This document shows positions 3,152-20,414 of a DNA stretch of 64,000 nt, piece after piece. The DNA is from Cyclobacteriaceae bacterium (GTDB lineage Bacteria; Bacteroidota; Bacteroidia; Cytophagales; Cyclobacteriaceae): the NCBI GenBank assembly GCA_019638285.1, contig JAHBUB010000009.1:62001-126000 (forward strand). The letters are read 5' to 3'. How positions within the stretch are numbered: the first letter of the stretch is position 1; each line of letters begins with the position of its first letter. The position numbers and the translations under genes were made by a program. Under the pieces are notes generated by a model. It saw only the letters and a list, made by a program, of their open reading frames with translations. It made no database searches and had not been told where the DNA came from.

Positions 3152-5593
3152 TTATGACGGGCTATGTTTTTCTTTTAATTCATTCAATAATTGTTCCAAA
3201 CTTACCTCATCTGAGATTAAAACCTCCCTGGCTTTAGAACCTTCAAAAGACCCAACTATACCAGCCGCTTCTAATTGGTCGATAAGCCTCCCAGCACGGT
3301 TGTAACCCAGTTTTAGCTTACGCTGAATGAGAGAGGTACTTCCTTGCTGATGCCCAACAATAAGGCGAGCTGCTTCTTCAAACAAAGCATCTCTTTCTGA
3401 TAAATCAATAGCAGATACTCCTTTGTCATCATCTCCTTCAAACTCGGGAAGCATATATGCTGACTCATAACCGCGTTGGGAGCCAATATATTCACAAATT
3501 TTTTCGACCTCATGGGTGTCTACAAATGGACACTGAAGCCTGATGACATCTGATCCCTCCGACAAAAGCATATCTCCTTGGCCGATGAGCTGATCCGCTC
3601 CACCAGCATCCAAGATAGTCCGTGAATCAATTTTAGAAGTCACCCTAAAAGATAAACGTGCCGGGAAGTTCGCCTTTATCACACCGGTAATCACATTGAC
3701 GGAAGGGCGCTGAGTGGCTACCACCAAGTGTATCCCTATAGCACGCGCTAATTGAGCAAGTCTGGCAATCGGAGTTTCTACTTCCTTGCCTGCGGTCATC
3801 ATTAAATCAGCCAACTCATCAATCACCAACACGATGTAAGGAAGAAAGCGATGGCCTTCTTTTGGGTTAAGCTTGCGCGAAACAAACTTGGCGTTGTATT
3901 CTTTTAGGTTTCTGGCTCCTGCATCCTTCATCATTTCGTATCGATTTTCCATTTCAATACAAAGTGAATTGAGGGTATGTACTACTTTGCGCGTATCGGT
4001 AATAATAGCGTCTTCAGTGCCTGGAAGTTTGGCCAAGAAGTGCCTTTCCAATTTACTAAAGAGCGACATCTCCACCTTTTTGGGGTCGACCAATACAAAC
4101 TTAAGCTGGCTGGGGTGACGTTTATATATAAGTGAGGTAAGTATCACATTCAACCCAACTGATTTTCCCTGACCCGTGGCTCCCGCCACTAACAAGTGAG
4201 GCATCTTGGCCAGATCAATAACAAACACTTCATTAGAGATGGTCTTACCCAACGCAATCGGCAACTCTTTGTCCGACTTCATGAACTTCTCAGTACTTAG
4301 TACCTGACGAATACCCACCATCTCACGGTTCTTATTCGGCACCTCAATACCAATGGTACCTTTTCCCGGAATGGGAGCAATAATACGTATTCCCAGTGCC
4401 GCCAAACTTAGGGCTATATCGTCTTCCAAATTTTTAATTCTGGAAATCTTGATACCCGCTTCGGGTACAATCTCATATAATGTTACCGTAGGTCCAATGG
4501 TAGCCTTTATACTTGTGATGCCAATTTTAAAATTGGTAAGGGTTTCAAGAATTTTGTCTTTGTTGTGAGTAAGCTCTTCTTGCGTCACTTGCACTTTTCC
4601 TGAGTCATACTCATCCAAAAGATCAAGTGTTGGGAATTTATAACTGCTCAGATCCATCGTAGGGTCATACACACCATGCTCCGCCACTAATTTGTCTGCC
4701 ATCTGATCGGTATCAGATTTTGATTCCTCCACCACAAAAGTTGGTTCGGCTTTCTTTTCAGCAGATTTCTCTGGCTTTCGTGGCTCAACAGCCAATGCAA
4801 TTTCTGCAGGCTTCTCCTCAATCTCTTCATCATCCATTGGTGTTTCTACTTCCTCCAGCTTCTTATCAATCTGATTAGCTGTCCAGTTATCGCCTTCTTC
4901 CGTATATCCACTGTTGGCTTCATCTTTTAAGAGTGCAGCATTTCCCATCGGCTTTGGATCCTTTACCTGAAAGGCATTGATGGTAGTAACATTGAAGAAA
5001 TAAATAATAAACACAAATAATGAAAACACCAGAACAAGAAATGTTCCCCAACCCAAAAGCCCATTAGAAATTTTCGCCAGTTCAAAGCCCAGCCCCCCAC
5101 TCAAAAAATTTATTTCGTGTACACCGACTACACTATTAGTAATGTATCCCAACAACAGGCACAACCATAGCCCGGAGAATAAAGAGAAAATAAAAACGGA
5201 GAAAAGTGGTAACAAGGCCCGTTTAAAAACCATTTTAAAGCCAAGAAGGAATAATATAGGAGGGATAAAAAATGCAGATATCCCGAACCATTTAAAAATA
5301 AAATAATGGGAGATAATAGCTCCGTATAAGCCGAGCCAATTTTCTACTTCACGTCCCGAGTCAGCAAGACCTGTCTCCCTGACTGCATCTACTACACTCT
5401 GATCCGCTTTCCCGGTAAATAAATACGAAATAAAGGCCGTTACTAGATAAAGGGAAGCGATGAGAAGAAAAAAGCCCAATGCAAGCTTGAGGCGCGGATC
5501 GTTAAAAAAGGAGAATGAAAAACCGGATTTCCCATCCTTTTTCTTTTTCTCTGCTTTCTTGAAAGTATTGGACTTGTATGAGTTTTGGGCCAT
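3152..5593 (-). CDS. ftsK: DNA translocase FtsK/SpoIIIE
   Basis: Septal DNA pump that clears chromosome termini during division and activates XerCD-dif recombination. The 813 residues contain four N-terminal membrane segments (about 35-59, 88-118, 127-150 and 178-200), an acidic and lysine-rich linker (about 215-320), the alpha/beta RecA-type motor with Walker A GATGQGKS (about 469) and Walker B LVIDELAD (about 588), and a C-terminal winged-helix gamma domain (about 745-810) that in the family reads KOPS sites. The length is normal for Bacteroidota. A XerD-type recombinase is encoded at 27.3 kb. A -7 box candidate lies directly upstream. Confidence 0.95.
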   Translation of the reverse strand: MAQNSYKSNTFKKAEKKKKDGKSGFSFSFFNDPRLKLALGFFLLIASLYLVTAFISYLFTGKADQSVVDAVRETGLADSGREVENWLGLYGAIISHYFIFKWFGISAFFIPPILFLLGFKMVFKRALLPLFSVFIFSLFSGLWLCLLLGYITNSVVGVHEINFLSGGLGFELAKISNGLLGWGTFLVLVFSLFVFIIYFFNVTTINAFQVKDPKPMGNAALLKDEANSGYTEEGDNWTANQIDKKLEEVETPMDDEEIEEKPAEIALAVEPRKPEKSAEKKAEPTFVVEESKSDTDQMADKLVAEHGVYDPTMDLSSYKFPTLDLLDEYDSGKVQVTQEELTHNKDKILETLTNFKIGITSIKATIGPTVTLYEIVPEAGIKISRIKNLEDDIALSLAALGIRIIAPIPGKGTIGIEVPNKNREMVGIRQVLSTEKFMKSDKELPIALGKTISNEVFVIDLAKMPHLLVAGATGQGKSVGLNVILTSLIYKRHPSQLKFVLVDPKKVEMSLFSKLERHFLAKLPGTEDAIITDTRKVVHTLNSLCIEMENRYEMMKDAGARNLKEYNAKFVSRKLNPKEGHRFLPYIVLVIDELADLMMTAGKEVETPIARLAQLARAIGIHLVVATQRPSVNVITGVIKANFPARLSFRVTSKIDSRTILDAGGADQLIGQGDMLLSEGSDVIRLQCPFVDTHEVEKICEYIGSQRGYESAYMLPEFEGDDDKGVSAIDLSERDALFEEAARLIVGHQQGSTSLIQRKLKLGYNRAGRLIDQLEAAGIVGSFEGSKAREVLISDEVSLEQLLNELKEKHSPS

Positions 5594-5813: not shown

Positions 5814-7823
5814 ATGAAATCTTCAATAGTAGGTTTACTACTAATCTGCACTTGCTACTGCATTTTTGCCCAAAAAGCCGACAGTCTGCAAACACTTCTT
5901 AAACAAACAAAATCCGATACTTCTAAAATTATTCTATTAAGTCAGTTGGCTGATGAGCTTACTCAATCCAATCCACAGAAATCTATCGCAGTTGCCAAAG
6001 AAGGTCTCGCGCTGGCCAACCGGATTGATTTTGCAAGAGGTGCCTTTGAAAATTACTTCTCCTTAGCCAGTTCATACCAAGGGCAGGCTCAGTTCGATTC
6101 TGCTATTGTCTATTTTCATAGCGCACAATCTATTGCAGATTTGAGACGTGACAAGTCCGGGCAAGCCAAAATATACTCGGCCCTCGGCCACAGCTTCATG
6201 CGGAAATCACAAATGGATTCCGCCCGTTATTATTTAGATAAAGCTCTTACGCTGGCCATAGAAATTAAAAACTATCGCGTGGAGGCCGGCATCTATAACA
6301 ATTACGGAAATGTGTGTTTGGAAGAAAGCAACTACCAGCAAGCGTTAGATTATTTTATCCGCGCGGTGAAATTATACGAGCATCCTTTAGAAGATGCCTA
6401 CGGTCAATGCCTTGCATTATCCAATATTGGCAATATTGAATATCAACTTGGTAATTATAACAAGGCGTTTGATTATGCATGGCAGAGTATGAACCTGGCA
6501 AAGCGAGGATCCTATATATCTCATATCAGCTACGCTCATAAACTTCTTGGGCGGATTTACAGAAAGCAAAAAAAATACGACAGTGCTTTGGCCGAGTATG
6601 AGCAAGCCCAAAAACAGTCTTTGAAATCAGGTGACATGCGCAGTGCTGCCGAGCTTCTTCAAAACATTGGTAACATCTATTTTGATAAAGAGCAATATTC
6701 GGCTGCATTATCAAACTATATAGCCTCACTAAATCTTGCCAAAAAAATTTCGAATAAGTCCTTAATTGCTTATGCCTATTCAGCTATCGGCCAGGCTTAT
6801 TCTATACTGAACAAAAATGATGTTGCTCTGCTTTACTTAGATTCGGCACGAGTTGCTGCAAAAGCCGTAAACAATTCGTATTTATTAATGGATACCTACG
6901 AAGCAATTAGTTCCTCGTATGAAGCCAAAGGCAACTACAGGAAAGCATTAAGCATGCATCAGCAGTTTGGGCTACTGAAAGACAGTTTAACACAATCTGA
7001 AAACCGCGCCATGATGGAAGAAACCCAGGCACGCTACGAGCTTGAAAAAAAGCAAACGCAAATTGATCTACTCAAAAAAGATAATGATTTAAGAACACTA
7101 GACGTACGCAGACAGCGCGCTATTCAAATTGGATCTCTTAGTGCATTGACTTTGGCCCTTGTGATCGGTGCTCTGTTAATCAACCGATATCGAATCACCA
7201 ATCGCGCAAAACGAATGACCGAAATAGAAGCCGTGCGCAACGACATTGCCCGTGATTTGCATGACGACATTGGTTCTACTTTATCTACCATTAACATCAT
7301 CAGCAAATTAGCCATACATGAAAATCCTTTGGGCAATAACATGCAACTTAATCGCATAGCCGAGCAATCGTCAAAAACAATGGAAAGCATGAGTGATATT
7401 GTATGGTCGATCAATCCCATTAATGATACATTCGAAAAAGTGTTGATAAAAATGAAAGTGTTTGCTGCCGAAATTCTGGAACCTCAAAATATTCAATTTC
7501 GATTTTCAGAAGTGGGATTAGCAAGTAATCTTGTTCTTAACGTCAAGCAAAGAAAAAATCTCTTTCTCATCTTTAAGGAAACACTCAACAACGCAGCTAA
7601 ATACAGCCACGCGAAGGAGATCACCATTACTTTCAAACAGCAAAATAAAAACCTTACCCTGATAGTTACCGATGACGGAATTGGGTTTGATGCTCATGAT
7701 GTTATCCATGGAAATGGACTTATCAATATGAAAACAAGGTCCGATGATCTGGGGGCAAAGTTCTTATTGAATTCGGAACCCGGAAAGGGAACCACCCTCG
7801 TTTTGGAAATGCCTATTACATGA
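5814..7823 (+). CDS. TPR sensor histidine kinase (HisKA_3 type), module 1
   Basis: A 669-residue membrane kinase. It has a signal peptide (1-20, ending IFAQ), a long periplasmic array of TPR repeats (about 25-400), a coiled coil (about 400-430), one membrane helix (about 437-458), a HisKA_3 dimerisation domain with the phosphorylated His in RDLHDDIGSTLS (His483), and a HATPase domain with an N-box (FKETLNNAAKYS) and G-boxes DDGIGFD (about 620) and GNGLINM. Such kinases pair with NarL/LuxR regulators, and one follows 47 bases downstream. The TPR array suggests that it senses a protein or peptide in the periplasm (inference). A paralogue with the same architecture begins at 13428. Confidence 0.9.
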   Translation: MKSSIVGLLLICTCYCIFAQKADSLQTLLKQTKSDTSKIILLSQLADELTQSNPQKSIAVAKEGLALANRIDFARGAFENYFSLASSYQGQAQFDSAIVYFHSAQSIADLRRDKSGQAKIYSALGHSFMRKSQMDSARYYLDKALTLAIEIKNYRVEAGIYNNYGNVCLEESNYQQALDYFIRAVKLYEHPLEDAYGQCLALSNIGNIEYQLGNYNKAFDYAWQSMNLAKRGSYISHISYAHKLLGRIYRKQKKYDSALAEYEQAQKQSLKSGDMRSAAELLQNIGNIYFDKEQYSAALSNYIASLNLAKKISNKSLIAYAYSAIGQAYSILNKNDVALLYLDSARVAAKAVNNSYLLMDTYEAISSSYEAKGNYRKALSMHQQFGLLKDSLTQSENRAMMEETQARYELEKKQTQIDLLKKDNDLRTLDVRRQRAIQIGSLSALTLALVIGALLINRYRITNRAKRMTEIEAVRNDIARDLHDDIGSTLSTINIISKLAIHENPLGNNMQLNRIAEQSSKTMESMSDIVWSINPINDTFEKVLIKMKVFAAEILEPQNIQFRFSEVGLASNLVLNVKQRKNLFLIFKETLNNAAKYSHAKEITITFKQQNKNLTLIVTDDGIGFDAHDVIHGNGLINMKTRSDDLGAKFLLNSEPGKGTTLVLEMPIT

Positions 7824-7870
7824 TTGGGGTATAGGCTATGATTTTGATTTATTTTTACTTTGTTGGATAG

Positions 7871-8497
7871 ATGGCGATATCAGTACTTTTATATGAAGAC
7901 AACACCATGCTGCGCGAAAGTATCAGCAGCATGATACGCCTGGATGAACGATTTCAGGTTTCAGGTGCTTTTGAAAACGTGTTGCATGCTGAAAGTCAGG
8001 TGTTGGAAATTAACCCAGACATTATTTTAATGGACATCGATATGCCGGGTCGTAATGGTATTGAGGCGGTAAAACGAATTCGCGCTAAGGGGGTTAAAAT
8101 TCCTATTTTGATGCTTACGGTTTTTGACGATACCCAGCATGTGTTTGACGCACTCTGTGCAGGAGCGTCCGGATATCTGCTCAAAAAAAATCTTTCAGTC
8201 AAACTTTTTGAATCTATTGACGAAGTATTACACGGGGGTGCACCTATGTCACCCCCCATTGCCTTTATGGTAATTACCGCCTTGCAAAAGCCAATGGCCA
8301 ATCCCTATAAGCTCACTATTCGCGAAAGCGAAATCCTTACTTCCCTTTCCAAAGGGAATAGCTACAAAATGATGGCTTCGGAGTTTTCCGTTACCGTGGA
8401 TACTGTGCGTGCACACATCAAAAAAGTTTACGAAAAACTTCAGGTACATTCGCAAACGGAAGCAGTTAGCAAAGCCATTAAGGAGCGGTTGGTTTAA
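7871..8497 (+). CDS. NarL/LuxR-type response regulator, module 1
   Basis: A 208-residue two-domain regulator. The receiver has the acidic pair (YEDN), the phosphoacceptor Asp55 in LMDIDMPG, and the conserved Thr and Lys (LTVFDD, LLKK). The C-terminal LuxR/GerE helix-turn-helix (about 145-205) includes the recognition region SVTVDTVRAHIKKVYEKL. It lies 47 bases after the kinase and 108 bases before a surface-protein gene that carries an 18-base inverted repeat upstream. It is closely similar along its whole length to the regulator at 15524, most of all in the HTH, so the two probably recognise the same site. Confidence 0.92.
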   Translation: MAISVLLYEDNTMLRESISSMIRLDERFQVSGAFENVLHAESQVLEINPDIILMDIDMPGRNGIEAVKRIRAKGVKIPILMLTVFDDTQHVFDALCAGASGYLLKKNLSVKLFESIDEVLHGGAPMSPPIAFMVITALQKPMANPYKLTIRESEILTSLSKGNSYKMMASEFSVTVDTVRAHIKKVYEKLQVHSQTEAVSKAIKERLV

Positions 8498-8538
8498 ACA
8501 AATAAGGAGTGTTCGGTAAGAAGTGAGTGGTGGAGATT

Positions 8539-8556
8539 ATCACATCATCATGTAAT
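8539..8556. promoter_or_regulatory. 18-base inverted repeat, copy 1 (candidate response-regulator operator)
   Basis: ATCACAT-CATC-ATGTAAT: 7-base arms with one mismatch around a CATC spacer. It ends 48 bases before the ATG at 8605. The same 18 bases, with a single G/A difference, recur at 17028-17045 ahead of the other large T9SS surface-protein gene. NarL-family regulators are known to bind paired heptamers, so a role for the flanking LuxR-type regulators is a reasonable inference. Confidence 0.5.
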
Positions 8557-8598
8557 ACTATAGTATAGAAAAACTATTGATTTTTGATTCAAATCAAT
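8555..8598. repeat. Two further inverted repeats before the surface-protein start
   Basis: ATACTATAGTAT (8555-8566) is a perfect 12-base palindrome that overlaps the end of the 18-base repeat. ATTGATTT (8576-8583) and AAATCAAT (8591-8598) form 8-base arms around a 7-base loop, ending six bases before the ATG at 8605. They may be further operator sites or an RNA hairpin near the ribosome-binding region. Confidence 0.4.
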
Positions 8599-8604
8599 TT
8601 AGTC

Positions 8605-11600
8605 ATGAAAAGGGAAGCGCCCTGTTATTTTAAATTATCCATTGCCGCAATTCTATTTTTTGTGTCGATTGAGTATTCTCATGCCCAAATCACCAGCACC
8701 TTCGATGCCGATGCGGACGGCTGGATTCTTAGAAATAATGGCGATAACCTTACTGCAACTATTGTTCAGACTTCCACAGGTGGAAATCCGGATGGTTACA
8801 TTTCAGGTGATGTTCCCTTCGATAACTATCCAGCTTTCTTCTGGTATGCCCCTGCCAAATTTTTGGGGAATCTTACTTACAATTCCTTTGGGCAAACCTT
8901 AAGCTACAGTCAACAACAACTGATTACAGGAGACAACAGTGAGTATAACGGAAACTATTATGAAATTTATTCGGCTGACCTAGTCATATCCAGCGGAGGC
9001 ACCAGTATCTATTATCACACCAGTCCCAAGCCCACACTTAAGCCAGCCTGGTCAAATTATTCAGTAACGTTAGACGAATCCAGTGCGTGGCGAACCGGTG
9101 AATATATATCCAGCGCACTCGCTACACGTGCACAAATAAAAGCCGTGCTCCAAAATGTTACCGAGTTGCGCATCCGAGGGAATTATAATAACACCGCCAA
9201 CACGGTGAGTCTTGATCAGGTTTCGCTTGGCCAACGACCTCACGCTACTCCACTAACAATTTCAAACATCTCCGTGCTTTCAGGGAAACCAGGATCAACG
9301 ATAACAATAACCGGTTCAAACTTTGGGGCAAGTATCAGTGATAACAAAGTCTACTTTGGATCCATCGAGGCGCAAATTTCATCCGCATCCGCCACCTCCA
9401 TAACAGTAACTGTTCCTGCTGGCGCAGTTTATGAAAAAATAACAGTGGTCAATACAACAACAGGGGTATCCAAACAATCCTTAAAACCTTTCAACCCAAC
9501 CTTTGATGGCGGTGGTAGAATTATTCCCGCATCCTTCAAACCCAAAATTGATTTTCCATTGGATGCAGGAAATACTATACGTGGTATTGCGGTTGCTGAT
9601 ATTGATGGTGATGGATGGAATGATTTGTTGGTTGCGGAGGCTGCCACCAATAGCGTTTTAATTTTTCTAAATCTGGGCACGGGTGGAACGCTGTCTGCCT
9701 CTACGTTTGCCCCCAAAGTTACTTTAGCAGGAGCTGGTAATGGTAGCGGCTTACGTATAGTAGATTTAGATGGAGATGGGAAACAGGATATTGTCACTGA
9801 AAAAACTACTACCTCACCTACAGAGTTTGCAACATTTCGAAACACCAGTTCACCTGGCAGCGTAAGTTTTGAAGCCGTGGAGTTATGGCCTGGTATAATG
9901 TACTCGGGCTCCCTCGCTGCTATCGAGGATGTGGATGGTGATGGATTCTTTGATTTAATTGGACAACATGGAAATGGAAGCGCAGGTGCAGACCTTTGGA
10001 TCGCTCAAAATATCAGTAGCCCGGGTAATATAGAATTTGGCGCTTCGGTAAGCTATTTTGGTGGCGCCACATTAGATGCTGGTGCGGGTGTAACCACAGG
10101 CGACTTGGACAATGATGGTATTCCCGAAATTATTGTTACGCATAATTTTGGAGGTCAATTTCAAATCATAAAAAACAATTCCACACCAGGCACCATTTCA
10201 TTTGGCACTCCCTTTCCAATAGTGCAATCAATCAATGGTGGTATTGTCATTGCCGATTTTAATCTGGATGGCAAAAATGATCTCGCATGGAAACAAGGGT
10301 ATTATAATGATGATGTTCATATTCGGTTGAATACCAACAATGGTGGTGCACTCACAGCTTCTGATTTCGCTACAGAAATAATTCTTCAGTCAGAATTAAC
10401 TACCTATGGAGCGATTTCCATGGGGGATATTAATGGTGATGGAAAACCTGACATTCTTATTTCTGACAATGGGCAGGTTGGTGTATTTGAAAACATCTTT
10501 GATGGTGGTGCATTTACAGCCTCATCATTTATAGAGTCGTATGCATTTGAAGCCTCGGGTAACTCTACATATCCTACCGGTATTATTGCTGCTGATTTAA
10601 ATGGCGATCAAAAACCAGAAATGGTAGTGGGAATTACCAACACAAATCCAGTTCGCATTCTTCTTTACGAGAATAAAAATATTCATGCTCCGGTAATCTC
10701 ATTGAATACTATCTATCCATTAAAAGGAGCCGTTGGAAGTACAGTCACCATAACGGGTAGCAATTTCTCAACAATACCTACCAAAAATAGTGTTCGCTTC
10801 GGGGCAACAAAAGCAACTGTGTTAACGGCTACTGAAACACAACTTACCGTAACCGTTCCTCCAGGTGCCACGCTTGGCATGGTCAGTGTTACCCGCGATA
10901 ATCTTACTGCCCGTTATCACCTTCCCTTTGTTCCTACCTTTGGGCCAGGAGTTGTATTTGACAATACCCATTTCTCTCCACCGGTAAGTTTTACCTTAAC
11001 AACAGCTGATTATGATATTGCCATTGCTGATCTGAATAACGATGGTAAACCAGATGTTCTTGCTGAAGGACAGACCGCAAGAGCATACTCATTCCTAAAT
11101 ACGCACTCTGGAGGGTCGATCACCACTACTTCTTTAACAGCCAATGATACGACTGTAAATTCAACACAAAATCCTGTCTTAATCGATTTTGATGAAGATG
11201 GTCTTTTGGATATCATTAGTACAAGCGGAGCCTATAGAAACATTAGCACCATAAGTAAAATAGATTTTGCAGCATTGACAAATTTCGGCAGTGGAAGCAA
11301 TCATTCGTTTGGGGATTTCAATCGGGATGGAAAAACCGATGTACTCGGAGCAAATGGAACCAGTATTTCTATTGCAGAAAATCGATCCATACAACCCGGT
11401 CCTTTTTTAATAGGGAGTTATCCAACACTTAGCCCTATTTTTAATTTTTCCAAATCGGCAACCGGTGGTGGCACCGCTTCCGCTGATTTTGACAATGATG
11501 GCTGGAAAGATGTTACCGCAACAAACCCCGGAACAGATAATGTCACTGTGTGGAGAAATAATAGTGAGTTTAGAATTTCTACAACCGATTTTACTGCACA

Positions 11601-13422
11601 ACCTGTGATTGCAGTGGGTGATAATCCGGGAAGGATTTATGAGGGTGATCTGGATGTGGATGGGAAAATGGATTTAATGCTCTATTACGGTACAGGAACA
11701 TCATCAACTATGATTACTGTTTTACACAATCAAAGTACACCAGGAAATATTGTATTCAATCGTGTTGATTACACCATACCCGGTGCCGCTACGGTTGCTC
11801 ACATTAGTGATTTGGATGGCGATGGGAAACCTGAAATTATTGTGACTAGTGAATCAACTGATCAGTTTTTTATTTTAAAAAATACATCTACGCCCGGAAC
11901 GATGAATGCCTCATCTTTTACAACTCCATTTGCTACAGCAGTCAATAATCCTCGTGGGTTATCAAGCGGAGATTTAAATGCGGATGGTAAGCCTGAGATC
12001 ATTATCACTTCACAACCCAATTCATTATTGGTTTTTGAAAACCTTATTTCTACCACTTCAATTACCATTACGCAACAACCGGCAAGTCCTTTCTATGCGT
12101 GCGAAGGTTCAACCACTACTCTTAGCACCGATGCAACTGGCACAACCAACATCACGTACCAATGGCAAAAGTTTAATTCTGGAACTTCCCTCTTTGAAAA
12201 TCTGGTCAACAACACAACACTTTCCGGAGTTACCACAAAGACTCTTTCTATAGCCAACGTAACCAGTGCCGAAGGGGGTGATTACCGATGTCTCATTAAA
12301 GGTGATCTTGTGGCTGATGTAACCACCAATATTTCGAATGTTGTTTTCAACAATCTGCCCTCGCCCCCTGATGCAGTGAGTAGCACGAGTTGTGGACCTG
12401 GCTCGGTAACGCTTACCGCTTCCGGTGGAAGTCCTGGAGACTATCAATGGTACACTACGTCTCCGCTCACTTTAATTAGTGGAGAAACCAATGAAACGTA
12501 CACAACCCCAGTGTTATCTGCTTCAACACAATATGCCGTTAGTGTTAGCGGTACTTTTTGCAAAAGCCTTCCGGCCAATGTAACCGCATTCATCAATCCG
12601 CTACCTGCTATGCCTGTCATTACCTCAAGTGTTACCGCGGTGGGCAATGCGATAACTATTTGCTCCAGCACCACATTAACTTTATCGGCACCTACGGGGT
12701 TCACCGATTACCTGTGGTCGGATGGATCGATTACTCCACAGATTTCCGTTACAACTGCAGGCACGTATTCGGTCGTAGTTAAAGATGCACATGGATGTTC
12801 GAGTCCTGCTTCCGATGGACTAACAGTTACCATAGTAGCGGCTCCGTGCAACAACTCGGCTCCCGTTATCAATACTACTTCTGTGACTACAATTATTGGT
12901 GGACAAACTTCTATTAATCTCTTAGATCTCATTTCAGACGCGGACGACAATCTCGTGCCTTCTTCCCTCATCGTTATAGTTCAGCCAACCAGTGGCGCAA
13001 CAACAACCCTCACCAATGGTATTTTACTCATTGACTACTCTGGAACAAATTTTACGGGTACCGATCAACTGACCATACAGGTGTGCGATGTGTTTGGGGA
13101 ATGTGTACAGCAACAAATTGAAGTAGATGTAATTGGAGAACTTGAGATATATAATGGCATCTCTCCCAATGGTGATTCATATAATAACAAATGGATCATT
13201 AAAAATATTGAATCCTTGCCAAAGACTAGAGAGAATAAAGTTTCCATTTACAATCGATGGGGAGACGAGGTTTTTACAATAACTGATTACGATAACAACA
13301 GTAGGGTGTTTATTGGCCTCAATAAAAACGGCAATGAACTTCCATCAGGAATCTATTACTATAAGATAGAGTTCGAAAAAAGTGGAGAAACCAAAACTGG
13401 CTACCTTTCCCTGAAGCGATAA
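8605..13422 (+). CDS. Large T9SS-sorted surface protein: laminin-B-like, TIG, FG-GAP, CHU_C
   Basis: A secreted protein of 1605 residues. I start it at the ATG at 8605 rather than an upstream in-frame codon (8584), because MKREAPCYFK leads straight into a signal peptide ending SHAQ. Domains: a laminin-B-like jelly roll (about 25-205, TSTFDADADGW), IPT/TIG (about 215-295), a block of FG-GAP/VCBS propeller repeats, a second TIG (about 700-775), a second FG-GAP block, Ig-like domains (about 1150-1410), a cadherin-like domain, and CHU_C (about 1515-1605, YNRWGDEVF). I count about 14 calcium-binding motifs of the DxDGDGxxD kind. The CHU_C domain is a type B signal for T9SS export, so the protein should reach the cell surface or be released. 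It may bind glycans or mediate adhesion; no enzyme domain is visible. Confidence 0.9.
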   Translation: MKREAPCYFKLSIAAILFFVSIEYSHAQITSTFDADADGWILRNNGDNLTATIVQTSTGGNPDGYISGDVPFDNYPAFFWYAPAKFLGNLTYNSFGQTLSYSQQQLITGDNSEYNGNYYEIYSADLVISSGGTSIYYHTSPKPTLKPAWSNYSVTLDESSAWRTGEYISSALATRAQIKAVLQNVTELRIRGNYNNTANTVSLDQVSLGQRPHATPLTISNISVLSGKPGSTITITGSNFGASISDNKVYFGSIEAQISSASATSITVTVPAGAVYEKITVVNTTTGVSKQSLKPFNPTFDGGGRIIPASFKPKIDFPLDAGNTIRGIAVADIDGDGWNDLLVAEAATNSVLIFLNLGTGGTLSASTFAPKVTLAGAGNGSGLRIVDLDGDGKQDIVTEKTTTSPTEFATFRNTSSPGSVSFEAVELWPGIMYSGSLAAIEDVDGDGFFDLIGQHGNGSAGADLWIAQNISSPGNIEFGASVSYFGGATLDAGAGVTTGDLDNDGIPEIIVTHNFGGQFQIIKNNSTPGTISFGTPFPIVQSINGGIVIADFNLDGKNDLAWKQGYYNDDVHIRLNTNNGGALTASDFATEIILQSELTTYGAISMGDINGDGKPDILISDNGQVGVFENIFDGGAFTASSFIESYAFEASGNSTYPTGIIAADLNGDQKPEMVVGITNTNPVRILLYENKNIHAPVISLNTIYPLKGAVGSTVTITGSNFSTIPTKNSVRFGATKATVLTATETQLTVTVPPGATLGMVSVTRDNLTARYHLPFVPTFGPGVVFDNTHFSPPVSFTLTTADYDIAIADLNNDGKPDVLAEGQTARAYSFLNTHSGGSITTTSLTANDTTVNSTQNPVLIDFDEDGLLDIISTSGAYRNISTISKIDFAALTNFGSGSNHSFGDFNRDGKTDVLGANGTSISIAENRSIQPGPFLIGSYPTLSPIFNFSKSATGGGTASADFDNDGWKDVTATNPGTDNVTVWRNNSEFRISTTDFTAQPVIAVGDNPGRIYEGDLDVDGKMDLMLYYGTGTSSTMITVLHNQSTPGNIVFNRVDYTIPGAATVAHISDLDGDGKPEIIVTSESTDQFFILKNTSTPGTMNASSFTTPFATAVNNPRGLSSGDLNADGKPEIIITSQPNSLLVFENLISTTSITITQQPASPFYACEGSTTTLSTDATGTTNITYQWQKFNSGTSLFENLVNNTTLSGVTTKTLSIANVTSAEGGDYRCLIKGDLVADVTTNISNVVFNNLPSPPDAVSSTSCGPGSVTLTASGGSPGDYQWYTTSPLTLISGETNETYTTPVLSASTQYAVSVSGTFCKSLPANVTAFINPLPAMPVITSSVTAVGNAITICSSTTLTLSAPTGFTDYLWSDGSITPQISVTTAGTYSVVVKDAHGCSSPASDGLTVTIVAAPCNNSAPVINTTSVTTIIGGQTSINLLDLISDADDNLVPSSLIVIVQPTSGATTTLTNGILLIDYSGTNFTGTDQLTIQVCDVFGECVQQQIEVDVIGELEIYNGISPNGDSYNNKWIIKNIESLPKTRENKVSIYNRWGDEVFTITDYDNNSRVFIGLNKNGNELPSGIYYYKIEFEKSGETKTGYLSLKR

Positions 13423-13427
13423 ATAAA

Positions 13428-15011
13428 TTGAGCTTTTTATTCACTACCTTGATTTCAAAACGCAAAGTTTTGAAAAAGGTAGTCTTGATTCTATTCCTAC
13501 TGATAAATGTGGAAATCGCATTTTCCCAAACCACCTTAATTGACAGCCTCAAAAATATAGTTGCAGTACACCCGGGTGACACGATAGGTCTAAATGCCTT
13601 GCTTAATCTAACCGATGAAGTGTCAAGAAAAGACATGGGTCCCGCTAAGGTTTTAGCCCATCAGGCAATAGTCCTTGCCGAGAAATTAAATTATAGCCTC
13701 AAATTAGGAAACGGTTATCAATACCTGATGATCTTTCACCAGAATGGTGGCAGTCTTGACAGCGCTGGTTATTATGTCAATAAATTAGAACAGCTTTCCA
13801 ACGAAAATCCTGATAATAGAAAAATAAAAATAAATTACAATCAAACTGCTGGTCTGTTCTATAAAAATCAGGGGCAATACAGCAGGTCCTTGCCATTTAT
13901 GCTGGACAATCTAAATCTATTAAAGGCTGAAAATGAAAGCCGAGCGGGACAACTTCTCAACCTTGGTAATACTTACAATAACATGGGTGATTTCGCTAAT
14001 GCGGTACACTACCACCTACAAGGCTTAGATCTCTTTGAGAAAATAAATAACATAAGAGGACAGTCTTTCTGTCTGCAAAGTTTGGGAAACGACTTCTTGG
14101 GACTAAAACAATTTGAACAGGCCAAAAATTATTTCGAACGATCAGTCAAATTAAAAGAGGAGCTCGGTGATAGGCGCGGCCTTATAAATACCTGGTCTGG
14201 GCTGGGTGATGTGTATAAAGAACAAAATCAGTTTCGATTGGCGGAAAACTATTACTTAAAGTCACTACGCAGCTTACGCGAAATGAATTTAATCTTAGGT
14301 GAGTCCAAAACACAAAACCAATTGGGCCTGCTTTACAAAAAGATGGGCGATATTCCACGCGCCCATGCAACCCTATCAGCTGGTTTGGCTCTGGCCAAAA
14401 AAGGGGGCGACAGTACATTGAGCGCTGCCATCAATTCCAATTTGGTTGATTTAGTCCTATTAGAAAAAAAAGAGTACGAAATAGAAAACACTTTATTCAA
14501 CAACTTAAACACTTTCATTAATTCGGGCGATCGAATTAATGAAGCCTTAAGCTATTATAGACTTAGTGAATATTATCAAAGCAACAATCAATTTGAAAAG
14601 GCCTACAACAACCTTAAAAAATATGAACAATTAAAAGATAGTGTGGAAGGAAAAGAGGTATTAATTCAAATTAAAGATTTGGAGCAAAAGTACGAGACTG
14701 AAAAAAAGGAAAAAGAAATCATCCTCTTAAAAAAGGATCAGGAATTACAAGCATTGGCATTAAGTCGAGAGCGAACCAACGTGATTCTATTTGCCTTTGC
14801 CCTATTTTCCGTTCTTATCATAAGCGTTCTTTTGGTCAATAGATATCGCCTAAAGAACAGAGCCAATCGCATGATGGAGATGGAACGCATGCGAAATACC
14901 ATTGCAAGGGATCTTCACGATGACATCGGCTCTACCCTCTCCAGCATTAACATTATGAGTCAGTTGGCCATGAACGAAAATGGTAACACCAATCAACAAT
15001 TAAAAAAATAG
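13428..15011 (+). CDS. TPR sensor histidine kinase, module 2, N-terminal part before the frameshift
   Basis: Five bases after the surface-protein stop a TTG-initiated frame opens; no ATG is available, and a second TTG at 13470 would give a tighter signal peptide (ending IAFSQ). The 527 residues carry the signal peptide, TPR repeats (about 60-400), a coiled coil, a membrane helix (about 455-477) and the start of the HisKA_3 domain with RDLHDDIGSTLSSINI. The frame stops at TAG (15009-15011), directly after seven A. The ATPase domain continues in the -1 frame. Without a shift the product would be a sensor with its phospho-His but no catalytic domain. The rejoined protein would be about 682 residues, matching the 669 of its paralogue at 5814. 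Confidence 0.85.
   Translation: MSFLFTTLISKRKVLKKVVLILFLLINVEIAFSQTTLIDSLKNIVAVHPGDTIGLNALLNLTDEVSRKDMGPAKVLAHQAIVLAEKLNYSLKLGNGYQYLMIFHQNGGSLDSAGYYVNKLEQLSNENPDNRKIKINYNQTAGLFYKNQGQYSRSLPFMLDNLNLLKAENESRAGQLLNLGNTYNNMGDFANAVHYHLQGLDLFEKINNIRGQSFCLQSLGNDFLGLKQFEQAKNYFERSVKLKEELGDRRGLINTWSGLGDVYKEQNQFRLAENYYLKSLRSLREMNLILGESKTQNQLGLLYKKMGDIPRAHATLSAGLALAKKGGDSTLSAAINSNLVDLVLLEKKEYEIENTLFNNLNTFINSGDRINEALSYYRLSEYYQSNNQFEKAYNNLKKYEQLKDSVEGKEVLIQIKDLEQKYETEKKEKEIILLKKDQELQALALSRERTNVILFAFALFSVLIISVLLVNRYRLKNRANRMMEMERMRNTIARDLHDDIGSTLSSINIMSQLAMNENGNTNQQLKK
15000..15011 (+). other. Slippery A7 run with an immediate stop (-1 frameshift point)
   Basis: The zero-frame codons are TTA AAA AAA TAG. 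The heptamer A AAA AAA (15002-15008) is in exactly the phase needed for -1 slippage. Rereading the last A gives ATA GCC ACA CAC TCT GCA CAG ATG ATG, which restores the kinase sequence that aligns with the paralogue. An eighth A would have the same effect. The strongest downstream stem I found (TGATGG at 15030 with CCATCA at 15060) is weak and too far away to be a classic stimulator. Confidence 0.7.
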
Positions 15012-15028
15012 CCACACACTCTGCACAG

Positions 15029-15475
15029 ATGATGGAAAACATGAGTGACATTGTCTGGTCCATCAATCCTAAAAATGATTTGGCTGAGCAAATGGTCTTT
15101 AAGATGAAAGAGTTTGTTGCTGAAATTTTAGAGCCAACCGGTATAGATTATTCTTTCCATGTAGAAGGTTCCGTTGACATGCTGAAATTAGATTCAGAGA
15201 AAAGAAAAAATTTATTCTTGATTTTTAAAGAAGCCATAAACAATGCGGCTAAATATAGTGAGGGAACAAATGTTACCATCAATTTATTACTTCAAAAAAA
15301 TCACTTACATCTTGAGGTAATTGACAACGGAAAAGGATTTAATATTGAAGAAGGTAAACGTGGTAACGGACTATCTAACATGAAAGATCGGGCTGCTGCC
15401 ATAGCAGGGGCGCTTCAACACAACAGTGAGCTTGGGAAAGGCACTCGAATTTTACTCACCGTTCCCATCACATGA
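15029..15475 (+). CDS. TPR sensor histidine kinase, module 2, C-terminal ATPase part
   Basis: This is the -1 frame continuation; kinase-like residues (IATHSAQ) already start at 15008, and the first ATG is at 15029. The 148 residues contain the end of the dimerisation helices (MENMSDIVWSINPKND) and a complete HATPase domain with N-box FKEAINNAAKYS, G-box DNGKGF and GNGLSNM. On its own it would be a free ATPase domain lacking the histidine. As part of a fused product it completes a kinase like that at 5814. The following response regulator is intact, so the pathway is not obviously decayed. There are no other stops or gaps in either half. Confidence 0.85.
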   Translation: MMENMSDIVWSINPKNDLAEQMVFKMKEFVAEILEPTGIDYSFHVEGSVDMLKLDSEKRKNLFLIFKEAINNAAKYSEGTNVTINLLLQKNHLHLEVIDNGKGFNIEEGKRGNGLSNMKDRAAAIAGALQHNSELGKGTRILLTVPIT

Positions 15476-15523
15476 TTAGGGTATTTTAGAAAACTTAAAT
15501 TATTTTCTGCTTTGTCTCATACA

Positions 15524-16159
15524 ATGAAGCCCCTGTCTGTTTTTATCTTTGAAGATAATGCACTGCTCCGCGAAAGCATTGGTAGTTTAATTTTAGCTAA
15601 GCCTGAGATGAAATTATTAGGAGCCTTCGAAAATGTGCACACTGTCAAAGATCAGGTAAGCAAGTACAACCCGGATCTTATTTTAATGGATATCGATATG
15701 CCTGGTAGGAGTGGCATTGAAGCCGTGAAAGAAATCAGGCAATCAAATATTCAAACTCCCATCATCATGCTCACCGTGTTTGATGACAACACGCATGTGC
15801 TGGATGCGATTAGAGCTGGGGCTTCTGGTTATTTATTAAAAAAGCATCTTTCAACCAAACTTTACGATTCCATTGAAGAAGTACTAGCAGGCGGAGCGCC
15901 CATGAGCCCTAGTGTGGCGCGGATGGTCATTGCCTCGATGCATCAAAAACCACAATTAGAAAATACATACCAACTCACTTCCCGCGAAAAGGAAATTCTT
16001 ACTTCGTTGAGCAAGGGCAACAGCTACAAACTGATAGCCGCGCAGTTTGAGATAAGCATTGACACGGTACGCACCCACATTAAAAAAATATATGAAAAGT
16101 TGCATGTGCATTCTCAGACCGAGGCTGTGTCTAAAGCCATCAACGAAAGACTAGTATGA
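15524..16159 (+). CDS. NarL/LuxR-type response regulator, module 2
   Basis: 211 residues from the ATG at 15524; a TTG four codons earlier is less likely when aligned with the paralogue at 7871. Receiver: FEDN acidic pair, phosphoacceptor Asp56 in LMDIDMPG, LTVFDD, and a Lys pair in LLKK. LuxR HTH at about 148-208 with SIDTVRTHIKKIYEKL. It lies 48 bases after the split kinase, and its TGA overlaps the ATG of the next gene (ATGA). The HTH helices match those of module 1 closely, fitting the shared inverted repeat upstream of 8605 and 17079. Confidence 0.92.
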   Translation: MKPLSVFIFEDNALLRESIGSLILAKPEMKLLGAFENVHTVKDQVSKYNPDLILMDIDMPGRSGIEAVKEIRQSNIQTPIIMLTVFDDNTHVLDAIRAGASGYLLKKHLSTKLYDSIEEVLAGGAPMSPSVARMVIASMHQKPQLENTYQLTSREKEILTSLSKGNSYKLIAAQFEISIDTVRTHIKKIYEKLHVHSQTEAVSKAINERLV

Positions 16160-16794
16160 TAAGATCCATCTCTATTGGAAAATCTATATTCTGGGCAATA
16201 CTCATCCTATTATCGGCAGCATTTTATTTCGAAAACGCAGTAGTTTATTTATTTGGATACAGAAATGCGCGTTTTGCGGGCAACGAGTTTTGGTTTGTTG
16301 CACACATTTTGGGAGCCACATGCTCATTGTTTCTAGGGCCCATTCAATTTTGGAAATCCATTCGCACAAAATATATCCGCTATCACAGACTGGCTGGAAA
16401 GATTTACATTATCGGTTCGTTGATTGCTGGTGTTGCCGCACTCCGGCTTTCGCTAATTTTTGGTTGCGTAGGTTGTCGGTTCTCCTTATTCCCATTATCG
16501 ATCTTATTTATTCTCACTACCTCACTGGCCTGGTACGCTATCACGCAAAAAAACATTACGGCACACAAACAATTTATGGTAAGAAGTTATACGTGCGCGT
16601 TGGCTTTTGTTTTTGCCCGATTATATCAAGTTATACCGATGGAATTTATTTTTGGTATCATTGACGATCCTACGGTTAAACGGGTGGTGATCGAGTGGAT
16701 GTTTTCAATCTTACCCTTAATCATTGTCGAAATAGCAATTATTTGGATACCTTCTATTCAGACTGCTCCTATCATAAACAATAAAGTGCGCTAA
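16156..16794 (+). CDS. DUF2306 membrane protein
   Basis: A 212-residue integral membrane protein with about six hydrophobic segments. The features YHRLAGKIYIIGSLIAG and AHKQFMVRSYTCALAFVFAR are typical of DUF2306, a family of unknown function. The histidines and the conserved Arg near membrane boundaries are sometimes taken to suggest cofactor binding, but this is unproven. It is translationally coupled to the response regulator (ATGA overlap), so it is probably expressed with the module 2 signalling genes. Module 1 has no equivalent gene at this place. The gap after it (16795-17078) holds an inverted repeat at 17028-17045 and nothing else recognisable. Confidence 0.8.
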   Translation: MIRSISIGKSIFWAILILLSAAFYFENAVVYLFGYRNARFAGNEFWFVAHILGATCSLFLGPIQFWKSIRTKYIRYHRLAGKIYIIGSLIAGVAALRLSLIFGCVGCRFSLFPLSILFILTTSLAWYAITQKNITAHKQFMVRSYTCALAFVFARLYQVIPMEFIFGIIDDPTVKRVVIEWMFSILPLIIVEIAIIWIPSIQTAPIINNKVR

Positions 16795-17045: not shown

Positions 17046-17078
17046 TTCATTTCATTCCAATTCTAAGAAGATTTGAAT

Positions 17079-19415
17079 ATGAAATGGAATAGGCCAAGAC
17101 TCTTAAAAATACTTAGTGTCATTATCATTATATCATCAGGCTCATTCAAACAGTTAAGGGCTCAAACGCCATCACTTGATTGGGCAAAGGCATTAGGGGG
17201 AACAGGTAATGATGAGGGTCGCTCTGTTGCTACTGATTTAGCAGGAAACGTGTTTACAACGGGTAGATTCAATGGCACTGCTGATTTCGACCCCGGAGCT
17301 GGCACCTTTAACCTTACTTCCGCTGGGAACGATGACATCTTCATTTCTAAGCTTGACGCTACTGGAAATTTTGTTTGGGCCGTTGGCTTCGGAAGCACTA
17401 GTTATGATCAAGGAAGATCCATCGCTATTGATCCATTCGGAAATATTTTAGTCACTGGTGAATTTCGAAACACGATTGACTTTGATCCAGGAGCTGGCAT
17501 ATTCAACTTAACTGCACCATCAGGATTATATGATATTTATGTTTTGAAGTTAGATGGAAACGGAAATTTTGTTTGGGCGGTTTCCTTTGGAGATCCGGCC
17601 TCCAATTCAGATATCGGTTATGCGATCGATACTGATGTAACAGGAAATGTTTATGTAACTGGAATTTATAGTGGCACTGCCGACTTTGATCCTGGTGTAG
17701 GTACATTTCCTTTAACCGCCTTAGGGCCTGCTGGTTTCCCTGAAGTATTTATTTTAAAATTAAGCGCTGCTGGCAATTTTGTTTGGGCTAAATCGATTGG
17801 AGGCACAGCACAAGACCATGCTTATGGTATTTCAATCGATCCCTTGGGCAACGTGATTGTGGGCGGAGATTTTATTGGAACTGTTGATTTTGATCCAGGT
17901 GCGAGCATAGCCAATCTTACACCAATCGGTTTTCTGGATCCATTTATTTTGAAATTAGATGGTGATGGAAATTTTGTTTGGGCTAAATCTATTGGAGGAG
18001 GAGCTAGCGAGCAAATTTGGGCGGTGACAACTGATACAAATGGAAATATCTTTGCTACTGGTGATTTTCAAGGCAGTATTGACCTAGATCCTGGGGTCGG
18101 AACTTTTATTCAATTAGATGCAGGAACCGGGCCAGGAAGTGGAGATATTTTCATCCTAAAACTGGATGTCAATGGTAACTTTATATGGGGCGCAGGTTTT
18201 GGCGATAATCAGATAGATCGGGTTAGAGGCACGGCTGTTGATGGATTGGGAAACAGTTATTTTACTGGCTACTTTAGAGGTACGGTGGATTTTGATCCAG
18301 CAGTAGGTGTTTTCAATTTAAGTTCTACCCCTAGCACTGCCTCTGACATTTTCATATCTAAATATGATCCTTCCGGCAATCTTATTTGGGCAGGAAGCAT
18401 GGGCGGCACCAGCGATTTTGAAATAGGCAATTCCATTACTGTAAGCGCTGGAAATATCTATGTGACAGGAGGATTCTTTAACACAGCCGATTTCGATCCG
18501 GGAAGTGGAACGTTTAATCTTATAAGCAATGGCTCATTCGTAGATGCTTTTGTTGTAAAATTGGCACCAACCATTCCAGCCATTCCAACTATTATTTCAT
18601 TCACTCCAACAAGTGGAGCAGTCGGCAACATCGTTACAATTACTGGAACAAACTTCAGCACAACACCAACTGATAATCTTGCTATGTTTAATGGAGCAAC
18701 TGCAATGGTAACAGCAAGTACAACTACAAGTATTACTGTTATTGTTCTAGCAGGGGCAACCACAGGAAAAATTACCGTAACGGTTGGCGGAAATACAGCC
18801 ACCAGTGCAAGTAACTTTACAGTAACCACAAATCCCAACAATCAACCACCCGTTATTGCACCGAGCACAAGCGCTGCACCCATCAATGGAATTATTACGA
18901 TTGATCTCTTACGATTAATAAGCGATCCCGATGACAACGTTGATCTTTCAACACTCAGTCTTACCAGTAATATTTCAGAACAGGGCGCAGCGGCAAGCAT
19001 TACCTCAGCATTCGAGTTAGTATTAAATTATGGAGGTGTAGCTTTTGCAGGTACGGATCGAGTACTTCTATCTGTATGCGATTTATTAGGTGAGTGTGAT
19101 CAACAGGAACTAAGTATTGAAGTGAGAAGTGATGTTATTGTTTACAATGCCGTTTCTCCAAACAATGATGGCCTCAACGATATTTTCTACATCCGGTACA
19201 TCAATTTACTTCCAGAAACCAGAGAAAATAAAGTTTCTATTTATAATCGTTGGGGTGACTTGATTTTCGAAACAACTAATTATGACAATGATGTCAATGT
19301 TTTCAAAGGCATTAATAAAAATGGGAATGACGTGACTTCAGGTACTTACTTTTACAAAATTGAGTTTAAAAGTGGTCGGGAAAAAATAACTGGGTTTCTG
19401 TCTGTAAAGCAATAA
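17079..19415 (+). CDS. T9SS-sorted surface protein with SBBP propeller repeats, TIG and CHU_C
   Basis: 778 residues from the ATG at 17079 (a TTG two codons upstream is less likely). A signal peptide ends RAQ at about 29. Then come seven repeats of about 66 residues, each with a 'GNVFVTGxF.GTxDFDPGxG' strand pattern typical of SBBP beta-propeller repeats. Seven FDPG-like motifs can be counted, which would fit one seven-bladed propeller. IPT/TIG (about 505-585), a cadherin-like domain (about 590-690, shared with the protein at 8605) and CHU_C (about 690-778, IYNRWGDLIFE) follow. It is predicted to leave the cell by T9SS. There is no catalytic domain; a binding or structural role is likely. The inverted repeat upstream points to control by the adjacent two-component system. 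Confidence 0.88.
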   Translation: MKWNRPRLLKILSVIIIISSGSFKQLRAQTPSLDWAKALGGTGNDEGRSVATDLAGNVFTTGRFNGTADFDPGAGTFNLTSAGNDDIFISKLDATGNFVWAVGFGSTSYDQGRSIAIDPFGNILVTGEFRNTIDFDPGAGIFNLTAPSGLYDIYVLKLDGNGNFVWAVSFGDPASNSDIGYAIDTDVTGNVYVTGIYSGTADFDPGVGTFPLTALGPAGFPEVFILKLSAAGNFVWAKSIGGTAQDHAYGISIDPLGNVIVGGDFIGTVDFDPGASIANLTPIGFLDPFILKLDGDGNFVWAKSIGGGASEQIWAVTTDTNGNIFATGDFQGSIDLDPGVGTFIQLDAGTGPGSGDIFILKLDVNGNFIWGAGFGDNQIDRVRGTAVDGLGNSYFTGYFRGTVDFDPAVGVFNLSSTPSTASDIFISKYDPSGNLIWAGSMGGTSDFEIGNSITVSAGNIYVTGGFFNTADFDPGSGTFNLISNGSFVDAFVVKLAPTIPAIPTIISFTPTSGAVGNIVTITGTNFSTTPTDNLAMFNGATAMVTASTTTSITVIVLAGATTGKITVTVGGNTATSASNFTVTTNPNNQPPVIAPSTSAAPINGIITIDLLRLISDPDDNVDLSTLSLTSNISEQGAAASITSAFELVLNYGGVAFAGTDRVLLSVCDLLGECDQQELSIEVRSDVIVYNAVSPNNDGLNDIFYIRYINLLPETRENKVSIYNRWGDLIFETTNYDNDVNVFKGINKNGNDVTSGTYFYKIEFKSGREKITGFLSVKQ

Positions 19416-19553: not shown

Positions 19554-20414
19554 ATGCGGAATATCGGAATCAGCCTGTGTTTTGTTCTATTTATTGTAAG
19601 TGCCAAGGGGCAAATAATCAGCACTTTTGATAGTGATGCTGACGGATGGACAGGCATCGACAATCTAACAGGATCTAACCCAACTTATCAATCCAACGGA
19701 GGAAATCCGGGTGGATACATTGAAGTAGTAGATGGGGTGCAGGGCACAGCCACTTATTTCAATGCACCAGCCAAATTCTTAGGCAACAGATCCTCTTCTT
19801 ATGGAGCCACACTTCGATTTGACCTACAGGTTTCGATAACACCCAACAGCAGTACGGCTGGAGTGCGACTTATAGGGGGTGGTATTACATTGGTAAAATT
19901 GCTACCTGACTTACCGGCTGTCGCGCCTGCCTGGACATCCTATACATTTAAACTGGACGAATCGGAAGATTGGAAAATCATTAACACCTACGGAAATATT
20001 GCCGATGCAGAAGATATCAAAACTGTGTTGGGCTCATTAACTGCCATTGGAATTAATGGCGAGTACAGTACAGTTGCTGATGATGGTGGAGGTTTGGATA
20101 ATGTAGTTTTGGAAACAACCGTTGTTCCAGATATTGAAGTTTACAATGGAATTTCCCCAAACAACGATTCCAAAAATGATTCATTCAAAATTCTCAACAT
20201 TGACTTATCTCCCGATACGCAAAATAACAATGTAACGATATACAATCGCTGGGGCGATTTGGTTTTCGAAACCGTCAATTATGATAACACAAAAAATGTG
20301 TTTAAAGGCCTAAATTCAAGTGGCGACAGACTTCCTTCAGGAATTTACTTTTATAAAATTGAATTTGCTAGTGCAAGAGAATCAATAACAGGATACCTCA
20401 CCTTAAAACATTAA
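19554..20414 (+). CDS. Short T9SS-sorted surface protein: laminin-B-like domain plus CHU_C
   Basis: 286 residues: a signal peptide (1-19, ending AKG), a laminin-B-like jelly roll (about 20-190, beginning ISTFDSDADGWTG) and CHU_C (about 195-286, NGISPNNDSKND, IYNRWGDLVFE). It is in effect the N- and C-terminal domains of the 1605-residue protein at 8605 joined together without the propeller and TIG parts. The opening ITSTFDADADGW / IISTFDSDADGW is nearly identical in the two. It starts 138 bases after the previous stop and could be co-transcribed with it. No inverted repeat like that at 17028 is present in the gap. Confidence 0.85.
   Translation: MRNIGISLCFVLFIVSAKGQIISTFDSDADGWTGIDNLTGSNPTYQSNGGNPGGYIEVVDGVQGTATYFNAPAKFLGNRSSSYGATLRFDLQVSITPNSSTAGVRLIGGGITLVKLLPDLPAVAPAWTSYTFKLDESEDWKIINTYGNIADAEDIKTVLGSLTAIGINGEYSTVADDGGGLDNVVLETTVVPDIEVYNGISPNNDSKNDSFKILNIDLSPDTQNNNVTIYNRWGDLVFETVNYDNTKNVFKGLNSSGDRLPSGIYFYKIEFASARESITGYLTLKH

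Follow-up and report, generated by a model that had tools for sequence, protein, structure and literature searches.

A sensor kinase gene in the genome of a Cyclobacteriaceae bacterium is cut in two by a stop codon directly behind a run of seven A residues, raising the question of whether a programmed −1 frameshift joins the halves or the gene has recently been inactivated; a sequence-only reading of the locus had left the choice between the two. We analysed the gene within the window, a stretch of 64,000 nucleotides that is part of contig C85 (genome of 3.98 Mb in 85 contigs, 99.39% complete). The kinase, its neighbouring regulator and an intact paralogue are laid out as follows.

13428–15011, + strand: N-terminal ORF of the broken kinase, 527 aa as listed, ending at TAG.
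15002–15008, + strand: A7 run in A_AAA_AAA phase and site of the frame break (sequence reading and relatives' frames).
15009–15011, + strand: zero-frame TAG stop directly 3' of the A7 run (sequence reading).
15014–15475, + strand: C-terminal half in the −1 frame, with the second DHp helix and HATPase (relatives' frames and profile match).
15512–16159, + strand: response regulator, whole, Response_reg plus GerE (profile matches).
5814–7823, + strand: paralogous TPR–HisKA_3–HATPase kinase, whole (profile matches), with its regulator next at 7871–8497.

The N-terminal ORF, whose TTG start is mechanically assigned, encodes TPR repeats, a hydrophobic segment recognised by eye and the N-terminal portion of HisKA_3 (profile positions 2–29 of 68), including the H-box helix DLHDDIGS. 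The C-terminal half contains an ORF of 148 aa with its own ATG (15029–15475), which covers HATPase_c and stops at 15475. At the junction the zero frame reads TTA AAA AAA TAG (15000–15011), the slippery phase and immediate stop that the sequence-only reading had described. When intact homologous ORFs from relatives are aligned to the window, the match runs in frame 3 to about 15008 and switches to frame 2 from that point; the frame change therefore falls at the A run, which bears out the earlier proposal that a −1 shift restores the kinase. H-box and HATPase, which a HisKA_3 kinase is expected to carry on a single chain, lie in separate ORFs here and on one chain in the paralogue. The frame break is thus a real feature of the given sequence. 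It is also beyond chance, unlike the A7 heptamer as such: mechanically chosen ORFs of at least 100 aa, read on the sense strand over 135,556 bases of the contig, hold 47 A7 runs and 21 longer A runs; 18 of the A7 runs, that of the broken kinase among them, are in slippery phase.

The site was then compared among relatives by locating the H-box motif, with up to two substitutions allowed, in 56 loci (L001–L056). The motif was not found in four of these (L037, L054, L055 and L056); the remaining loci gave 26 distinct sequences from the bacterium's own genome and 26 other genomes (counted from locus origins), 25 of the same genus and one of the same order. This set includes paralogues and weaker homologues and covers matches with a fetched locus; matches of G019, G041, G060, G069 and G070 are among those outside it. 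A stop at the site occurs in the window copy only, and the frame break is absent from every examined copy of the 26 other genomes and from the bacterium's own paralogue, which is open as well. In all other copies 186–207 residues separate the H-box from the stop, except for L016, which runs for 169 residues to the edge of its locus. A scan of named genomes gave three distant matches, none with the H-box motif. Matches to the N-terminal half at E ≤ 1e-40 were present in 14 of 57 other genomes (at most 25 candidates scored per genome), and the gene therefore looks accessory.

The nearest copy, from G029, is 78% identical in nucleotides over 776 bases, with 777 of its bases aligned to 776 of the window. 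Both this copy and that of G027 also carry an A7 run, whose first A occupies codon position 1, and their frame is continuous. Another 17 copies (16 from relatives, plus the bacterium's own paralogue) have a longest A run of 3 to 7 in the 110-nt stretch concerned. An ancestor with eight A residues is therefore possible without being required, and the lost base cannot be pinpointed. The sequence-only reading had taken A8 in all relatives as the mark of a simple mutation; this does not hold literally, as the two nearest copies have A7 in another phase and the 17 others never exceed seven, but the meaning of the test is borne out by the relatives' continuous frame.

Selective constraint was assessed on either side of the break. 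Synonymous distances are mostly saturated, and the usable ratios for the broken kinase are those of the C-terminal half and of the last 450 nt of the N-terminal half, both against G029. The C-terminal half is 81.6% identical to G029 in amino acids (dS 1.71, dN 0.110, dN/dS 0.064), and the last 450 nt of the N-terminal half give a dN/dS of 0.051. Relative-rate counts of unique changes in the C-terminal half (window:G029) were 5:7, 5:5, 6:1, 5:1, 7:2 and 3:3 with six outgroups, with no significant rate excess (chi-square at most 3.57 over the six). With three of these outgroups (6:1, 5:1 and 7:2) the balance tips towards the window copy, so a slight relaxation is possible. For the N-terminal half (13428–15008), three of the six outgroups show the window exceeding G029 in amino acid changes (chi-square 3.92, 5.55 and 10.78), and its last 150 residues show a window excess with one of six (chi-square 6.25); this N-terminal excess is not explained by the frame break. 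With little or no relaxed constraint downstream yet, the break looks recent on these substitution counts.

Taken together, these comparisons point to a recent deletion of a single base within or next to the A run, found in this genome alone among those examined, as the probable cause of the break in an accessory TPR/HisKA_3 sensor kinase. Inactivation is thus the part of the earlier proposal that stands, with unbroken copies in 26 other genomes and a conserved C-terminal half; programmed frameshifting is not supported, given the lack of a conserved break, the lack of RNA structure above shuffles (see below) and a heptamer phase that is a by-product. A conserved C-terminal half without significant excess of changes is what a young lesion should show. 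The same strong constraint would also be expected if a full-length product were still made, which counts against a deletion.

The remaining rivals rank, from the likeliest down, as sequence error, phase variation and programmed recoding. A sequencing, assembly or consensus error, with an unbroken frame in the true chromosome, is rather unlikely and nonetheless the alternative to be taken most seriously: the break is a lone one next to a homopolymer and is flanked by conserved sequence, and BLASTp-validated singletons, or unclustered frame breaks, are described as expected sequencing errors, not genuine indels (PMC3711429). That published expectation favours an error more than the ranking given here does, and the lack of other breaks in the contig is weighed against it. 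We surveyed contig C85 with 349 ORFs from relatives' stretches as queries; comparable bases amounted to 79,243 (45,818 in the window, 33,425 in the left flank and none in the right flank), and the broken kinase was the only own-gene break among them, despite the 47 A7 and 21 longer A runs, not all of which lie in the comparable part. This speaks against a generally indel-ridden assembly, and a general homopolymer error is unsupported in the sampled stretch; the completeness and contig number of the genome also count against an error. An antisense pair returned by the survey at the broken-kinase site is the same break. Another pair, at 19575–19872, was rejected as a break of the window because it belongs to the copy of a relative, G009, whose homologue (L066:12751-13577) of the 19554–20414 protein is frame-broken, with residues 8–69 and 64–286 in different frames. 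Reversible change of run length by slipped-strand replication, with the off state caught here, is improbable by comparison. Phase variation is a known outcome for kinase and regulator genes, flgR varying in A and T runs (PMC3930126), but a run of seven is short, the 17 other copies measured stay at seven or below in the 110-nt stretch, the off state appears in no examined copy of the 26 other genomes, and ORFs of the contig commonly contain A7 and A8 runs.

A programmed event at the A7 run, either −1 ribosomal frameshifting or transcriptional slippage, that would yield both a truncated sensor and a full kinase is very improbable in our judgement. It would account for the classical-phase heptamer with its immediate stop and for the constrained C-terminal half, and seven A residues gave 10% frameshifting in an E. 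coli cassette (PMC3711429); but a one-base loss beside or within the run puts the remaining A7 in the −1-restoring phase, as the codons imply, so the phase is not independent evidence, and no examined copy in the 26 other genomes shares the break. In line with the sequence-only reading, which had seen no stable stem, downstream RNA structure, folded without pseudoknots, did not exceed shuffled sequence (z −0.15 and −0.29; 88 and 78 of 200 shuffles fold at least as well). No Shine–Dalgarno-like sequence was seen upstream by eye, which says little in this phylum because Bacteroidia ribosomes are reported not to recognise such sequences (PMC9976891), and one proven insertion-sequence frameshift is described as having no established stimulator (PMC4066793). 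The same source reports AAAAAAA as underrepresented in E. coli genes in all three frames (PMC4066793). Slippage on runs shorter than nine may occur in some bacteria, but selection against slippage runs is described as evident at nine A or T in a large proportion of genomes (PMC1088944), and the tssM1 case involves eleven A residues (PMC4256274). Least credible of all is a split kinase whose C-terminal half would be made separately by reinitiation at ATG 15029 and work in trans. That ATG lies 17 nt after the stop and opens the 148-aa HATPase ORF, but 6 of 7 aligned intact relatives have the matching Met within the helix, so the start codon did not arise anew; that no Shine–Dalgarno-like sequence was seen by eye is a further point against reinitiation, of little weight in this phylum.

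If a recent deletion is the cause, it would split the kinase between the two helices of the dimerisation and phosphotransfer domain, and the main product would be a sensor that retains the phospho-acceptor His and lacks the ATPase. Such a truncated sensor is incapable of autophosphorylation, which most likely leaves the kinase off. The adjacent regulator, intact as the sequence-only reading had noted, would then be silent or driven by another source, for example the paralogous kinase. The run left behind is by chance a slippery heptamer, so full-length kinase may still arise as a minor, unprogrammed fraction; with the 10% frameshifting of an A_AAA_AAA cassette in E. coli (PMC3711429) as a guide, loss of the kinase may be incomplete. 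It is a long shot that this leak is in use, with mostly truncated sensor and a few percent of full kinase, the truncated form titrating or dampening the full one in mixed dimers, so that the deletion would have turned into a dosage device for the two-component system.

The paralogue at 5814, which the sequence-only reading had likewise taken to be intact, forms with its regulator an unbroken kinase/regulator pair ~5 kb upstream of the broken kinase, and the two regulators are 65% identical. HisKA_3 matches number seven in the bacterium's own genome, and only the broken kinase was seen to be split; the match on contig C12 was inspected, while the five remaining ones sit in open frames of 637–1011 aa, the paralogue being the one inspected among them. 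The C12 match, a partial HisKA_3 match that had been considered as a second truncated kinase, was rejected because it lies in a 281-aa ORF with HATPase motifs recognised by eye. The last four bases of the regulator gene are shared with the gene of a DUF2306 membrane protein (16156–16794), possibly a member of the same operon. T9SS type B sorting domains, which suggest a member of the Bacteroidota, occur in three proteins (8584–13422, 17073–19415 and 19554–20414) located between and after the two kinase/regulator pairs; the C-terminal part of the first of these recurs in additional copies on the G029 contig. DNA identity to G029 varies along the region: 70–72% in the upstream ORF 3152–5593, 89% over 5868–9331 (the paralogous kinase with its regulator, plus the beginning of the secreted protein that follows), 76–83% at the end of that secreted protein (11611–13367) and 74% in the broken kinase and its regulator. 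The 89% stretch possibly reflects recent exchange between species or unusual conservation. Scanning for promoters and terminators returned no more than chance would give (8 versus a mean of 8.2, and 1 versus 2.5).

Among described systems, the locus resembles the GeneTack singletons and young pseudogenes (PMC3711429) in having one break, intact homologues elsewhere and an unconserved frameshift site; it differs in that its leftover sequence is a slippery heptamer, making a slight leak possible. It shares a poly-A site with the magnesium chelatase −1 frameshift cluster (PMC3711429), where cassettes with 7, 9 and 11 A residues, the shortest being A_AAA_AAA, are reported to give 10, 40 and 63% frameshifting in E. 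coli; that cluster comprises 23 genes in six genera, whereas the kinase break is found in one genome only, and a conserved site is listed there as a requirement for programmed clusters. Transcriptional frameshifting in tssM1 of Citrobacter rodentium (PMC4256274) likewise involves poly-A before a premature stop, with the remainder in another frame; that gene is rescued at eleven A residues, compared with seven here, and both of its forms are reported as shown to be required, whereas a role for both forms of the broken kinase would be hypothetical. The phase-variable flgR and flgS of Campylobacter jejuni (PMC3930126) are also a kinase/regulator pair with a break in or beside a short A run, but run length varies there, in contrast to the single A7 reading here.

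Loss of a single base next to an A run thus yields an in-phase slippery heptamer at no further cost, and conservation should be shown before such a site is called programmed. If the leak from the A7 run were functional, the broken kinase would be a natural and young example of an indel being rescued in a Bacteroidota two-component system.
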